Shown here: positions 5,219 through 8,944 of the stretch, one piece after another
Numbering within the stretch: the stretch's first letter is position 1
Layout: each line of letters opens with the position of its first letter
Source of the DNA: Pandoraea communis
Lineage (GTDB): Bacteria; Pseudomonadota; Gammaproteobacteria; Burkholderiales; Burkholderiaceae
Reading direction: 5' to 3'
DNA: 64,000 nucleotides
Assembly: GCF_902459745.1 (NCBI RefSeq)
Contig: NZ_CABPSJ010000002.1
Span: 682,001 to 746,000, forward strand
Position numbers and translations under genes: made by a program
Notes under the pieces: model-generated
The model's input: only the letters and a program-made list of their open reading frames with translations
What the model was told of the DNA's origin: nothing
Databases searched by the model: none

Positions 5219-6025
5219 ATGAACATGCCGCACGAGGCTTTTGCCATTCCCACGCCACTTGGCGCCCCCCTGCCCAAGCCGCGTGCGTTCGATAACGTCG
5301 AGGACGAACGCGCCGACCGGAAGCTGCGTCTCGCGGTGGCGTTCCGGATCTTCGCGCGCTTCGGTCTCGCCGAGGGTATCGCCGGCCACATCACCGTGCG
5401 CGATCCCGAGTTTCACGACCGCTTCTGGGTCAATCGCTACGCGCAGCACTTCTCGTCGATTCATCCGGACGATCTGATTCTCGTCGACGAGGCGGGTGGC
5501 CTGCATCACGGCCAAGGTCCGGTCAATGCCGCAGCCATGGCGATTCATGCCGGCATTCACGCCACCCTGCCCCATGTGACGGCGGCCGCGCACACGCACA
5601 CCACCCACGGACGCGCCTTCTCGGCACGCACACGCCCACTGGCCCCGATCAATCAGGAAGCCTGCCTCTTCTACGACGACCACGTGCTGTTTCGCGGCGA
5701 CGTGCTCGTGCTCGGTGCCGACGAGGGCCGTCGCATCGCTCGGACGATGGGACACAAGCGCGCCGCCGTGCTGCTCAATCACGGGTTGCTGACGGTGGGT
5801 TCGTCGGTCGACGCTGCGGCCTATCGCTTTCTCGCGATGGAGCGATGCGCGCAAGTGCAGTTGCTCGCCGAGGCGGCAGGCCCGCTTGAAGTGCTCCCCG
5901 ATAGCGAAGCCCGCGAGGTGTATCGTCTGCTCGGCTCCGACTATGTGGCGTGGCTGGGTTATCAGGGCCTCTACGAACAGGTGCTGCGCGAAAGCCCTGA
6001 TCTGTCGGCGTTGTCTGCCCGATAA
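5219..6025 (+). CDS. Class II aldolase/adducin domain protein
   Basis: This 268-residue protein has the zinc-site histidines of the class II aldolase fold: HTHTTHGR in the middle and NHGLLTVG further on. An acidic catalytic residue is probably in the N-terminal half. Relatives include L-fuculose-phosphate aldolase, ribulose-5-phosphate epimerase and many proteins of unknown substrate. The start at 5219 has GGAG about 9 bp upstream. It follows the PEP-mutase-like gene by 126 bp and its 3' end overlaps the convergent LysR gene by 55 bp. The substrate is unknown. Confidence 0.82.
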   Translation: MNMPHEAFAIPTPLGAPLPKPRAFDNVEDERADRKLRLAVAFRIFARFGLAEGIAGHITVRDPEFHDRFWVNRYAQHFSSIHPDDLILVDEAGGLHHGQGPVNAAAMAIHAGIHATLPHVTAAAHTHTTHGRAFSARTRPLAPINQEACLFYDDHVLFRGDVLVLGADEGRRIARTMGHKRAAVLLNHGLLTVGSSVDAAAYRFLAMERCAQVQLLAEAAGPLEVLPDSEAREVYRLLGSDYVAWLGYQGLYEQVLRESPDLSALSAR

Positions 6026-6933
6026 GCCTCGACCACCTGACGCAACCAGACGTCGAACTGGCGCAACGGCGCCCAGTCGCGGCGCTGCGCCGGATAGGAG
6101 AAGTAAATGGTCTGCGGATTGGCGAGCGTATGCGGATGCGCCTGCACCAGCATGCCGCTGGCCAGTTCGCGCTCGATCAGCACGCGCGGCAGCAAAGCGA
6201 TGCCAAGCCCCGCCACCGCCGCGTTGATCGCCATGATGAACATGTCGTAACGCTGTTCGCTGCGCAGGGGTTTGACGTCCTGCCCGACGGTGGACGCGTC
6301 GTGCATGCCCAGCGACGCGAGCCAGTCGTCCCACACGCGAGGCAGGTCGCGCGGGCAGATCCATGACAATGCGGCGATCTGTTCCAGCGAGAGCGACGCC
6401 TGCCCCTCAAGCAGACGGGGTGCCGCGACAAGCATAAGAGAATCGTCGGTAATGAGCGCGGTACCCGGCATGCCGGGCCAGCGCCGCGTGCTGAAGTAGA
6501 TCGCAGCGTCGAACGCGGAGTCTTCGAAGAACACGGGTTGATCGCGCCCGAGAATGTGAAGGCGAACGTCGCGCGTGTTTGCGTAGAAATCGTCCAGCCG
6601 TGGAATCAGCCATTGCGCGGCGAATGTCACGCCGACGGCAATTTCCAGCGCCGTCTCCTGCCCTTGCTGAACGACGTCGAGTGTGTCGCGTCGAATCTGG
6701 TCGAGATGCACGCGAATGCGCTTGGCGTATTCCGCACCGGCCGGTGTCAGGACCAGCCGTTGCTTCACGCGCTCGAACAACGCCACGCCGAGATGCTTCT
6801 CGAGTTCGCCGACGCGTTTGCAGACGGCGCCATGCGTGAGTGCAAGCTCCTGTGCGGCCTGCGCGAAATTCTGATGACGGGCGCTGGCCTCGAAGGCCTG
6901 CAACGCCGAGAGGCTGGGAACGCCCAGACGCAT
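5971..6933 (-). CDS. LysR-family transcriptional regulator (GcvA-like)
   Basis: The protein has 320 residues. The N-terminal winged HTH spans about residues 6-65 (LSALQAFEASARHQNFAQAA, then LTHGAVCKRVGELEKHLG). A periplasmic-binding-protein-like effector domain follows. The overall pattern resembles the GcvA/AmpR branch. The gene is convergent with the aldolase gene and sits upstream, in reading direction, of neither the aldolase nor the transporter, so its target is uncertain. Confidence 0.88.
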   Translation of the reverse strand: MRLGVPSLSALQAFEASARHQNFAQAAQELALTHGAVCKRVGELEKHLGVALFERVKQRLVLTPAGAEYAKRIRVHLDQIRRDTLDVVQQGQETALEIAVGVTFAAQWLIPRLDDFYANTRDVRLHILGRDQPVFFEDSAFDAAIYFSTRRWPGMPGTALITDDSLMLVAAPRLLEGQASLSLEQIAALSWICPRDLPRVWDDWLASLGMHDASTVGQDVKPLRSEQRYDMFIMAINAAVAGLGIALLPRVLIERELASGMLVQAHPHTLANPQTIYFSYPAQRRDWAPLRQFDVWLRQVVEAYRADNADRSGLSRSTCS

Positions 6934-7049
6934 GGTGTCTCCTGCGGGAATACGATCTTGCCCGACAGTCTATGCGATGCGTCGCGGGGAAACAAAACGG
7001 CCCGCCGTGCCGAAGCATCGCCGGGCCGCGTGGAATATGCGCACCGCGC

Positions 7050-8438
7050 TTACTCGACGTGCGCCACGCCCCCCGCGAGGACAGCGCCGCCAGCCACTTC
7101 TTTGGGCAGTGCCCACGACATCCAGTGCGTGCGCAGAGCAACGACCAGCACGAACGCCAGCGCCGCCAATGCACCGAACGTGGCGAAGCCCATCTGATAG
7201 CTGCCCGTCGACTCCTTCGCGATGCCCATGATCACCGGCAGATAGAAGCCGCCGATACCGCCGGCGGCGCCGATGATGCCCGACATCAGGCCCGTCTTGC
7301 CTTGCCAGCGTTGCGGCACGAGCTGGAACGTCGCGCCGTTGCCAAGACCGAAGCACACGTAGACCAGCACGAGCAGGGTGATACCGGCCCCTTGCGGAGG
7401 CATCCACGCGGCGAAGATCAGGTCGATGGCCGAAATCGCCGCGAGCAGCAGCACGAGCGCACGCACACCGGAAATCTTGTCGGCAACCAAACCGCCGATG
7501 GGACGTACCAGCGCGCCGAGAAACGCGAGCAGCGACATGAACAGACCCGCTTCGATACGCGGCATGCCATACAACGAGATAAGCAACGTGGTGACATACG
7601 ACGACATGCCGACGAAACCACCGAACGTGATGCTGTAGACCAGCATGATGACCCACGTGTCGCGCTCGGCCAGCACGCCGCGATAGTGACGCGGCAGCAC
7701 GGCAATCGCGAGCAGCGCGCCCAGCACCGGCAGCAACAGCACACCGGCCTTGCCTTCACCGAAAGCGCCCGCATGCACGCACAGCACGAGTGCAACGAGA
7801 CCGAACACGCTGATGATGAAGCTCGTGAACGCGCGCGGTGCACTGCCCGATTTCACCCCCTGATCCTTCGCCCAGAACACCAGCGCCAACGCGGCGAGGG
7901 CGAGCAACGGCAGTGCGGCACCCGCCGCATGCGCCCACCCGTAGTGCTCGGCCAGTCCGGGGAACATGAAGCCATCGAGCACGGCGCCGATGTTGCCCGC
8001 CGCAGCGAGACCGAGCACCAGCCCCTGCACCTTCGGCGGATAGTTGCTGCCTGCCATCGGCAACGCTACGGCGAAGCTCGCCCCGCCAATGCCGAGGAGC
8101 ACGCCGAGCACCAGCAGCAGCGTGTACGACGGCGTGCCCGGCATGAGCAGCAAGACCACAGACGGAATGGCCGAGAGTGCAAGGCCCATCAACGCGATCT
8201 TGCGGCCATCGAAAGCCTGATAAAGATTGCCCAGCGTGACGCGCAGAATGGCGGCCCCCAACACCGGCACGGCCACGAGAAAACCGGTTTGCGCGGGCGT
8301 CATCGCGATGTCTTTACCGATGAACGGCGCCAGCGGCCCGAGCATCACCCAGACGGTGAAACCCGTGTCGAAGTAGAGAAAACACGCAACCAGCGCGCGC
8401 CAGTTGCCACTTTTCAACGATTGCGTGAGCGTGCTCAT
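7050..8438 (-). CDS. Nitrate/nitrite transporter, NarK/NasA type MFS
   Basis: This is a 462-residue, 12-helix major facilitator protein. The glycine-rich nitrate-porter signatures are visible in helix 5 (GLVLGLAAAGNIGAV) and in a later helix (GLMSGIIGAAGGIGGFYLP). It should import nitrate, or exchange nitrate and nitrite, across the inner membrane. It is monocistronic: no narGHJI or nasCBA genes are adjacent. The leader has a sigma-54 promoter and an ANTAR-type antitermination element (separate entries), pointing to nitrogen-controlled assimilatory use (NasA role) rather than respiration. A GAGG ribosome-binding site precedes the ATG at 8438. Confidence 0.92.
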   Translation of the reverse strand: MSTLTQSLKSGNWRALVACFLYFDTGFTVWVMLGPLAPFIGKDIAMTPAQTGFLVAVPVLGAAILRVTLGNLYQAFDGRKIALMGLALSAIPSVVLLLMPGTPSYTLLLVLGVLLGIGGASFAVALPMAGSNYPPKVQGLVLGLAAAGNIGAVLDGFMFPGLAEHYGWAHAAGAALPLLALAALALVFWAKDQGVKSGSAPRAFTSFIISVFGLVALVLCVHAGAFGEGKAGVLLLPVLGALLAIAVLPRHYRGVLAERDTWVIMLVYSITFGGFVGMSSYVTTLLISLYGMPRIEAGLFMSLLAFLGALVRPIGGLVADKISGVRALVLLLAAISAIDLIFAAWMPPQGAGITLLVLVYVCFGLGNGATFQLVPQRWQGKTGLMSGIIGAAGGIGGFYLPVIMGIAKESTGSYQMGFATFGALAALAFVLVVALRTHWMSWALPKEVAGGAVLAGGVAHVE

Positions 8439-8461
8439 GGATACCCTCGTGTTCGTATGCT

Positions 8462-8518
8462 AAAAAAAAAGCGTCCCGAAGCCGTACGCCTGTGAACAGG
8501 CCTATGGCTTCGGGACGC
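8462..8518 (-). terminator. Intrinsic terminator inside the transporter leader (attenuator)
   Basis: Bases 8471-8483 and 8506-8518 are perfect 13-bp complements (GCGTCCCGAAGCC and its inverse), with a secondary GCCTG/CAGGC stem inside. In the leftward transcript the stem is followed by nine U residues (8470-8462). It lies 24 bp before the start codon of the nitrate transporter, so it must act as an attenuator, not as the end of an upstream gene. Confidence 0.9.
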
Positions 8519-8531
8519 CGTTGCCCCGAAG
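8508..8531 (-). promoter_or_regulatory. ANTAR-type P2 antiterminator hairpin
   Basis: In the leftward transcript CUUCGGGGC (8531-8523) pairs with GUCCCGAAG (8516-8508) around the hexaloop AACGGC. Position 1 of the loop is A and position 4 is G, the signature of ANTAR-domain RNA targets. The 3' arm is also the 5' arm of the terminator, so the two structures exclude each other. Confidence 0.85.
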
Positions 8532-8532
8532 T

Positions 8533-8548
8533 CCCCGCTGACGCGGGG
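8533..8548 (-). promoter_or_regulatory. GC-rich leader hairpin between P1 and P2
   Basis: CCCCGC and GCGGGG flank a four-base loop directly upstream of P2 in the leftward transcript. It is probably a linker or pausing hairpin of the leader. Its loop lacks the A1/G4 signature. Confidence 0.55.
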
Positions 8549-8586
8549 GCATGAATGCGGTGCAGAAAATTCGCTTGTCTTCACTC

Positions 8587-8600
8587 GGCCGCCTTTGGCC
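8587..8600 (-). promoter_or_regulatory. ANTAR-type P1 hairpin at the 5' end of the leader
   Basis: The leftward transcript reads GGCC-AAAGGC-GGCC: a four-pair stem with a hexaloop whose position 1 is A and position 4 is G. It begins about three bases after the predicted sigma-54 start site (8603). Paired hexaloops of this kind are the known target of NasR/NasT-like ANTAR proteins. Confidence 0.75.
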
Positions 8601-8613
8601 TTATGCAAGGGTT

Positions 8614-8629
8614 AGCAAGTGGCGTGCCA
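8614..8629 (-). promoter_or_regulatory. Sigma-54 promoter of the nitrate transporter gene
   Basis: On the minus strand the bases read TGGCACGCCACTTGCT, a complete match to the -24/-12 consensus TGGCACG-N4-TTGCW. The predicted start of transcription is near 8603, giving a leader of about 165 nt. Sigma-54 use implies an enhancer-binding activator, most likely NtrC. Confidence 0.88.
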
Positions 8630-8944
8630 TGTGCCGGCACGGCAGGCGCGCATTCCTCGCCAAGCCCCGCAACGCAAGGCCCTGCACCTGATCGATCCGT
8701 CATGGCGGCGTGTCATGCGCAGTGCGCCGCAGCGTGCCTGTCACACCGCCGGTGACACGGCAACGGGCACAATGCCGCATGGCGATGCGGCGGCGCACCA
8801 CATCTGTGCCCGCTCTGACCTGCCCGCTCTGACCTGCCATTACCGAGGGGCTACGCTACAGTTCACCCGCTATCGGTCGTTATTCCCATTCAGGCTGGCC
8901 GCGTTTCCGGCGGTGAGCGACAACAACATTCCTGGACCTCTCGC
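8630..8944. other. Intergenic region upstream of the nitrate transporter promoter
   Basis: There is no convincing gene here. It contains the candidate enhancer dyad, a perfect TGTCAC/GTGACA inverted repeat near 8738-8757, and a short tandem duplication (CCCGCTCTGACCTG twice, about 8809-8836). The rightward CPBP gene starts at 8945. Confidence 0.5.
8794..8810. promoter_or_regulatory. Candidate NtrC enhancer site
   Basis: CGCACCACATCTGTGCC resembles the NtrC dyad TGCACCA-N3-TGGTGCA, with the same spacing but four mismatches. It lies about 165 bp upstream of the sigma-54 promoter, a usual enhancer distance. This is a weak match and is offered as a candidate only. Confidence 0.4.

Follow-up and report, generated by a model that had tools for sequence, protein, structure and literature searches.

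Leaders in which ANTAR-domain regulators counteract transcription termination have been described in nitrate assimilation and in the eut genes of Enterococcus. The Klebsiella nasF gene is under Ntr plus NasR control (PMC5424462), and in its K. pneumoniae leader, as we read it, the loops are AATGGC and AAAGGC. The leaders of Azotobacter nasAB, Paracoccus nasA and Bradyrhizobium nos (PMC3795266, PMC5424462, PMC6759348; Azotobacter through citations) involve the NasS-NasT regulator pair and the nitrate logic that are proposed below. In Paracoccus, the hairpins HI and HII are located 137 and 91 bp before nasA, that is, 46 bp apart from start to start (PMC5424462). The linkers of eut leaders are 5-12 nt in length, and induction was drastically lowered at 14 nt (PMC3369931), while antitermination was abolished when 20 nt were added (PMC8934654). 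The ANTAR targets predicted in 2012 already included nitrate transporters and Burkholderia (PMC3369931), and a Bradyrhizobium narK gene with predicted NasT hairpins showed raised expression in a nasT mutant (PMC6759348). With respect to promoters, a survey predicted sigma-54 elements at 66 genes that encode ANTAR proteins, chiefly in beta- and gammaproteobacteria (PMC12316311), and in an ntrC mutant of B. cenocepacia H111, which could not use nitrate, the transcript levels of nirB, of a nitrate/nitrite transporter and of nasT were greatly reduced (PMC5491218).

The window analysed here is a stretch of 64,000 nucleotides from Pandoraea communis (contig NZ_CABPSJ010000002.1, positions 682,001 to 746,000), in which a gene for a NarK-family transporter is preceded by a leader with the parts listed in Table 1.

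Table 1. Positions of the transporter gene, its leader and the associated control sites within the window
Feature	Position	Strand	Basis or remark
NarK-family (MFS) nitrate/nitrite transporter, 462 aa	7050..8438	-	Pfam MFS_1 6e-31; ATG at 8438
U tract, nine U	8462..8470	-	direct reading
Intrinsic terminator hairpin, GCGTCCCGAAGCC / GGCTTCGGGACGC	8471..8518	-	mutually exclusive with P2
P2, antiterminator and second ANTAR hexaloop hairpin, CTTCGGGGC-AACGGC-GTCCCGAAG	8508..8531	-	direct reading
Middle hairpin between P1 and P2, CCCCGC-GTCA-GCGGGG	8533..8548	-	alignment
Linker core, 27 nt, AAGACAAGCGAATTTTCTGCACCGCAT	8555..8581	-	almost unchanged in 27 orthologues
P1, first ANTAR hexaloop hairpin, GGCC-AAAGGC-GGCC (4 bp)	8587..8600	-	direct reading
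Predicted transcription start	8603	-	inferred, 12 nt after the -12 C
Sigma-54 -24/-12 promoter, TGGCACGCCACTTGCT	8614..8629	-	direct reading
Candidate NtrC enhancer site, GGCACAGATGTGGTGCG	8794..8810	-	181 bp upstream of the -24/-12 element

The promoter element conforms to TGGCAC-N5-TTGC, with the GG and GC at the fixed spacing of sigma-54-dependent promoters, and its -12 C lies at position 8615. Downstream of it, both hexaloops carry A1 and G4 beneath a C-G closing pair. The P2 stem consists of nine pairs, one of them G-U, and its 3' arm is shared with the 13-pair terminator stem, in which 8518-8506 pairs with 8483-8471; the second hairpin and the intrinsic terminator are therefore mutually exclusive, as required of a NasT/NasR-type ANTAR leader. 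A sequence-only reading of this DNA had proposed the full -24/-12 match, a P1 beginning three bases past the predicted start, the P2 hairpin, the shared-arm terminator with its nine U residues and the A1 and G4 signature, and each of these, together with its coordinates, was borne out by direct reading of the minus strand. It had also suggested folding the leader from 8603 to 8439, and the resulting energy of -71 kcal/mol fell far below that of shuffled sequences (-52.7 +/- 4.3; z -4.25, 0/200 as good), with the free RNA adopting the terminated form (P1 plus terminator), as expected.

Both strands of the window were scanned for pairs of A1/G4 hexaloop hairpins of which the second overlaps a terminator, and exactly one site was found. 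When 40 dinucleotide shuffles of the whole window were scanned, a single hit was obtained in total (0.025 per window), and no shuffled window had a double-hairpin terminator with a sigma-54 element in place. As the scanner requires A1 and G4, its loop counts are no evidence for these positions, a point that is carried instead by the alignments; its recall is also limited, in that it misses leaders visible by eye (L294, L296, L297, L307, L308 and L318). A 551-aa open frame antisense to the transporter (window 6840-8495, plus strand) is most likely a product of high G+C.

Within the genus, 31 of 32 genomes encode the transporter and 28 have an ANTAR match, and the leader is kept in all 28 nasT-bearing genomes. 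It stands directly before the transporter in 27 of these, the exception being G028, in which it lies behind a PilJ/MCP-domain gene with 813 nt from the U tract to the ATG. Loss of the hexaloops in close relatives had been named as an outcome that would speak against the sequence-only reading; they were found to be kept in the 27 comparable orthologues and in G028 as the 28th. Across the 27 aligned orthologues, TGGCAC and TTGCT of the promoter are invariant, P1 starts 3 nt past the predicted +1 in every case, the P2 loop is identical, and the closing C-G pairs of both hexaloops do not vary. In the P1 loop, positions 1, 2 and 4 are invariant and positions 3, 5 and 6 are variable, such that A1 and G4 are retained in both loops throughout. 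The terminator had 18 cells changed on both sides compared with 6.9 in shuffles (0/500 reached this), whilst its four doubly changed pairs were not above shuffles (174/500 reached four). P1, the middle hairpin and P2 together had three cells changed on both sides, all within the middle hairpin.

Four genomes of the genus have no ANTAR match. G017, of 1.2 Mb, has neither transporter nor ANTAR gene, and in G023, G025 and G030, which encode the transporter, no leader was present (0/3) and the sigma-54 element begins approximately 55 nt before the transporter ATG. The nirB genes of the leaderless nasT-free genomes (L089-L091) likewise have a sigma-54 element and no leader. These three genomes form one divergent group, their transporters being 75-76% identical, and the joint absence may thus represent one event.

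Upstream of the promoter, the candidate enhancer scored 17 of 20 against TGCACC-N5-GGTGCA, which we take to be the NtrC consensus. The best NtrC-like palindrome was located 180-192 bp upstream of the sigma-54 element in 27/27 transporter loci, with a score of 17 or 18 in 26 of them and 16 in L024. Shuffled sequences reached the site score in 0-7 of 60 cases depending on the locus (0/60 for the window copy, L003), and the fixed position is better evidence for an NtrC-like site than this modest single-locus significance. At nirB, sites scoring 19-20 of 20 occurred at 108 or 117-118 bp, and at 96 bp in G028 (26 of 27 loci scored), the distances stepping by about one helical turn. The genome, of 5.7 Mb, encodes both RpoN (478 bits) and NtrC (667 bits, a score that includes the adjoining stretch). 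A further NtrC site within the linker, suggested by a TGCACC half-site, was rejected as its right half is not conserved.

The absence of any ANTAR gene from the genome would likewise have spoken against the sequence-only reading, and one such gene was found. The single ANTAR match is a response-regulator-ANTAR protein whose gene is followed by that of a substrate-binding-like protein, and the pair was named nasT-nasS on account of this gene position and the PDB relatives of the first protein, namely 1s8n, 6wsh (which we take to be EutV), 4akk (nitrate regulatory protein) and 1qo0 (AmiR); an NCBIfam search gave no name over cut-off for either NasT or NasS. Upstream of nasT-nasS are nirB (926 bits, over cut-off), a NasA-like reductase gene (under cut-off) and cobA (over cut-off). 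The nirB leader (L002:2861-3015) repeats the design, with TGGCACGCTTGTTGCG, a P1 loop AAAGGC, a P2 loop AACGGC and a terminator, and a perfect TGCACT-N5-GGTGCA is present 108 bp upstream. A double hexaloop was recovered by a relaxed scanner in 27/27 nirB leaders read from the 28 nasT-bearing genomes, that of G024 being split between contigs. In another genome of the genus, G008, there is a second ANTAR match (L060, 50.9 bits), weaker than that genome's nasT, and G028 has a second nirB-like and narK-like set (G028:C2:115155-120682) with its own P2 signature at 120669-120682.

The P2 signature GGRCAANGGCGTCC had exactly two matches in the genome, both of them in these leaders, and its reversed control pattern had none; the corresponding figures in other genomes of the genus were 0-7 and 0-3. 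Single matches in the nasT-free G023 and G025, where the reversed controls gave 3 and 2, are taken as chance. A covariance model (R1), a check of the kind that the sequence-only reading had suggested, scored 75.2 and 62.3 bits at the two leaders, both of which were among the 31 leaders on which it was trained, and apart from antisense echoes (34 and 26.6 bits) the next place in the genome reached 19.0 bits. Neither the P2 pattern nor R1 revealed a third such leader in the genome. Of the alignments themselves, A5 comprised 31 of 39 references and A4 omitted L076 and L088. These data show the parts of the leader, how well they are conserved, their association with nasT, and a regulon of two leaders. 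The paired control had been thought to serve a single gene without adjacent nas reductase genes; the reductase genes are indeed elsewhere, but the transporter belongs to a split regulon and is not a lone gene. A transporter far from the nas operon would be kept in step with it by a copy of the two-input leader.

The transporter's best NCBIfam match, TIGR00886, scored 256.8 bits, below the cut-off of 311.7, and its three PDB matches were NarK and nitrite extrusion proteins 1 and 2. A NarG profile search of the genome returned nothing over cut-off (best 48 bits against 1084), so that the NarG expected alongside a respiratory, nar-linked NarK was not found and a respiratory role of the transporter is unlikely. 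This result, and the position of the other leader copy on a nirB-nasA-cobA-nasT-nasS cluster, support the assimilatory label given by the sequence-only reading; a gene that automatic NarK naming would call respiratory moves to nitrate assimilation. A GcvA-like LysR regulator gene is located approximately 116 nt past the transporter on the same strand (window 5971-6933, minus strand).

We consider it very likely, at roughly nine chances in ten, that the leader serves as a transcription attenuator under the control of NasT, with a sigma-54/NtrC promoter feeding it. When nitrogen is limiting, NtrC bound some 180 bp upstream would open the sigma-54 promoter, as the sites suggest, and the transcript would start almost at P1. 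Without nitrate, NasS would hold NasT, the 13-bp terminator would form and RNA polymerase would stop at 8470-8462. With nitrate or nitrite, NasS would release NasT, whose ANTAR domains would load on the P1 hexaloop and pass to, or also bind, P2 and hold it. Because P2 uses the 5' arm of the terminator, we propose that polymerase would then read into the transporter gene and, because the same switch precedes nirB, that uptake and reduction would rise together. The 55-nt gap may, with less certainty, be bridged by the middle hairpin, which would keep P1 and P2 close. Binding by NasT, the response to nitrate and the position of the transcript start are inferred here from sequence features. The double control by an NtrC-type activator and a nitrate-responsive ANTAR protein that had been proposed is supported, in that the genome has an ANTAR gene and the orthologous leaders retain the hexaloops.

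Several observations count against a NasT-controlled attenuator, among them the P1-P2 spacing when set against the EutV spacing rule (PMC3369931, PMC8934654), the presence of leaders in only 34 of 80 nasT loci, the transporter score below the TIGR00886 cut-off, and the Bradyrhizobium narK result (PMC6759348). The leader could instead be a plain attenuator that works constitutively, or could end transcription arriving from upstream, with hexaloops that are remnants and a NasT that has lost its effect on this gene. This would account for the free RNA folding into the terminator and for Bradyrhizobium narK going up, not down, in the nasT mutant (PMC6759348). Against it, positions 1, 2 and 4 of the loops are invariant in all 27 orthologues, as are their C-G closing pairs, while positions 3, 5 and 6 of P1 vary, and the leader tracks nasT in the genus and recurs on the nas operon; we regard this explanation as very improbable. 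A more serious contender, though one to which we give rather less than an even chance, is that NasT reads the two hexaloops independently, P1 merely recruiting and P2 alone antiterminating, in which case spacing would be irrelevant and the middle hairpin filler. Single hexaloops are bound by EutV, which is believed to pass from P1 on to P2 (PMC8934654), and P1 falls at -1 to +3 nt relative to the predicted start in 54/54 Pandoraea leaders. Two of the 27 transporter leaders (L021 and L028) moreover have no middle hairpin, and the gap folds of these leaders barely beat shuffles (mean z -1.06, 17/27 under -1). The nirB leaders point the other way, as their gap hairpin, with 96.0% of cells paired and two pairs (three cells) doubly changed, is conserved, and the unpaired remainder of the gap amounts to 13-15 nt in 26/26 long forms against 11 in the hairpin-free form, as if spacing were preserved.

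The linker core raises the further idea that 8581-8555 is the target of another factor, such as a small RNA or a second protein, exerting a third control. It is about as well conserved as P2 across the 27 orthologues, persists for the most part in L021 and L028, and has no explanation in terms of ANTAR hexaloops; nevertheless, beyond a GAATT-like run it was not shared with the nirB leader or with other genera, and we hold a third control to be unlikely. Other candidates within this region were discarded, including a leader peptide (GTG AAG ACA AGC ...), whose frame an additional base interrupts in L010-L014 and whose start is lost in L017, a GTG/CAC linker stem as a conserved helix, broken in L017 and L023, and the middle hairpin of the window as a third ANTAR hexaloop, its loop being GTCA and not a hexaloop.

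The NasT-controlled attenuator proposed above has an unusually long P1-P2 gap of 55 nt, which holds an extra hairpin; the sequence-only reading had the parts and coordinates of the leader right and missed both this gap and the relation to RF03032 considered below. Gaps in the Pandoraea transporter leaders range from 37 to 64 nt (median 55, 27 orthologues), and the middle hairpin has 97.9% of its cells paired in 26 distinct rows, with one pair (three cells) changed on both sides. The nirB leaders have a median gap of 49 nt, with the exception of G028, which has the same short 11-nt form as the named P. terrae. The nirB gap folds had a mean z of -2.9 against shuffles, 26/27 being under -1, and the nirB pattern is what a spacing-preserving bridge would look like. 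The bridging case is weaker outside the nirB leaders, including the transporter-leader gaps elsewhere in the family (mean z -1.66, 12/20) and those of other nasT loci (-1.12, 10/18). With 11-nt direct, approximately 49-nt bridged and 37-64-nt gaps in one genus with one NasT, these leaders constitute a natural test of how ANTAR dimers make use of a hexaloop pair.

Beyond the genus, 120 of 299 family genomes have the transporter at E 1e-150. Orthologues of 79-84% identity had the leader in 19 of 20 read out of 23, the one without it being G047, and G067, G205 and G220 falling outside the 20. Those of 68-76% identity had the leader in 0 of 20 read out of 67, with a sigma-54 score of at least 18.5 just upstream in 17/20 and an ANTAR match in 19/20 genomes (not G106); nasT therefore does not imply a leader on the transporter gene. 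One genome, G251, has a transporter of each kind. These distributions suggest that sigma-54 control is a wider trait, and that a single branch acquired or retained the NasT lock.

Among 80 named nasT loci, the leader was found in 29 by a strict scan and in five more by a relaxed one (34 in total), and 31 of the 46 without a leader found belong to Paraburkholderia. While nirB was found in 56/80 overall, it was not near nasT in five of six leaderless loci inspected. The upstream reach was first approximately 800 nt and then approximately 1700 nt for 35 of 40 family loci, as leaders can hide behind a PilJ/MCP-domain gene (L214-L219 were used only in one tblastn set and an ORF list). Such a gene (for example L030:734-1501 and L093:680-1504) lies between leader and transporter in 14/15 of L221-L235, in G028 and in G225, and a relative of it is near nrtABC in L338; none was found beside the 27 Pandoraea transporters. 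The encoded protein is possibly a nitrate chemoreceptor-like partner. In the alphaproteobacterial nasT loci L257, L258, L260, L261, L263 and L265 the scanner had no hit, nor had it any in B. arboris L264, and in Novosphingobium L259 its hits were doubtful; in the light of these outcomes, the long gap is claimed for Burkholderiales only.

The narK motif (RF03032) was reportedly first described by Weinberg and colleagues in 2017, and we know of no function assigned to it; a literature search that did not extend to the original description gave no mention of narK RNA, the narK motif or RF03032. At gathering thresholds, an Rfam search of the window returned nothing, and a permissive search placed RF03032 at 8573-8628 with 19.8 bits (E 0.065 to 0.11), under the gathering score of 43.2, such that the window leader would work like RF03032 and is not a member by Rfam's rule. 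Five microRNA families from the permissive search were taken as chance echoes of the terminator palindrome. The printed RF03032 consensus starts GGCaCA...UUGCU, which is the -24/-12 element, and continues with a hairpin with the loop AACGGC and then ACGAC-AAAGAC-GUCGC, a second hexaloop hairpin; the Rfam structure line pairs only the first and leaves the second unpaired.

Of 399 Burkholderiales genomes, 45 matched RF03032 at E 0.001, three of them over the cut-off. In 29 of 30 fetched loci (not L303), a sigma-54 element was accompanied by two C-AANGNN-G hexaloops with a T-run behind them; since the loops are already in the Rfam consensus, the independent points are the T-run with its terminator, the second stem and the neighbours. 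In 27 aligned loci (alignment A6, from which L303, L310 and L314 are absent) the two stems had 54 doubly changed cells, where shuffles gave 16.2 (0/500 reached 54), the closing pairs being fixed by locus selection, and the helix absent from the Rfam model had three doubly changed pairs, with the outermost pair unpaired in 18/27. Among 20 regions of 10-20 kb around RF03032-like loci, a gene for a NasT- or NasR-like protein is present in 18, and one or more of nrtABC, an MFS transporter, or nirB or nasA relatives in 19; L337 has none of these, and L338 has nrtABC and no ANTAR gene in reach. RF03032 loci mostly have shorter gaps than the window and, at E 0.01, the model matched none of 20 family transporter loci, which indicates that it does not reach the long-gap leaders.

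Three tandem hexaloops before one terminator were seen in six of the 30 loci (L293, L295, L299, L301, L309, with a weak middle stem, and L312), with first-to-last distances of 50-64 nt compared with 68 and 74 nt in the two leaders of the window genome; the Pandoraea middle hairpin may be a former third hexaloop hairpin. RF03032 is likely a sigma-54 promoter with a dual-hexaloop leader, which would give a probable function to an Rfam family named only after the gene beside it, and points to a model in which RNA is combined with promoter sequence that is not transcribed. On balance we favour the view that the Burkholderiales leaders are a distinct class of ANTAR switch, in which P1 is tied to the 5' end of the sigma-54 transcript, P1 and P2 may be approximately 32-93 nt apart because they are bridged by a middle hairpin (itself a third hexaloop in some species), and the EutV spacing rule does not hold for NasT; narK RNA would be one such element, its 5' strand being promoter DNA and its second hexaloop having been missed.

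In comparison with the known systems, the observation is real and was correctly read, and sigma-54/NtrC control combined with ANTAR antitermination is known as a kind. The present analysis adds a long-gap variant with a distinct structure, a regulon that is split over two leaders and naturally missing from some genomes, and the likely identity of RF03032. Like the window leader, that of Klebsiella nasF has A1/G4 hexaloops in P1 and P2, C-G closing pairs, an arm shared between terminator and P2, and a role in nitrate assimilation, and as nasF already pairs NtrC/sigma-54 with an ANTAR regulator, the double control is not new in itself. The nasF regulator is, however, the one-component NasR (NIT-ANTAR), whereas the window genome has NasS-NasT, and the gap between the 4-bp cores is 11 nt in K. 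pneumoniae nasF and 13 nt in Pantoea compared with 60 nt in the window. The NasS-NasT leaders named above differ in that the window genome has two unlinked units with the leader and a longer gap with a hairpin, although, judging from the HI-HII spacing given for Paracoccus, a fairly wide gap is not unique to the Burkholderiales leaders. The Enterococcus eut leaders controlled by EutV also have two hexaloop hairpins, the second overlapping a terminator, and NasT aligns to 6wsh; with a gap of 55 nt against 5-12 nt, the window leader is nonetheless not filed as EutV-type.
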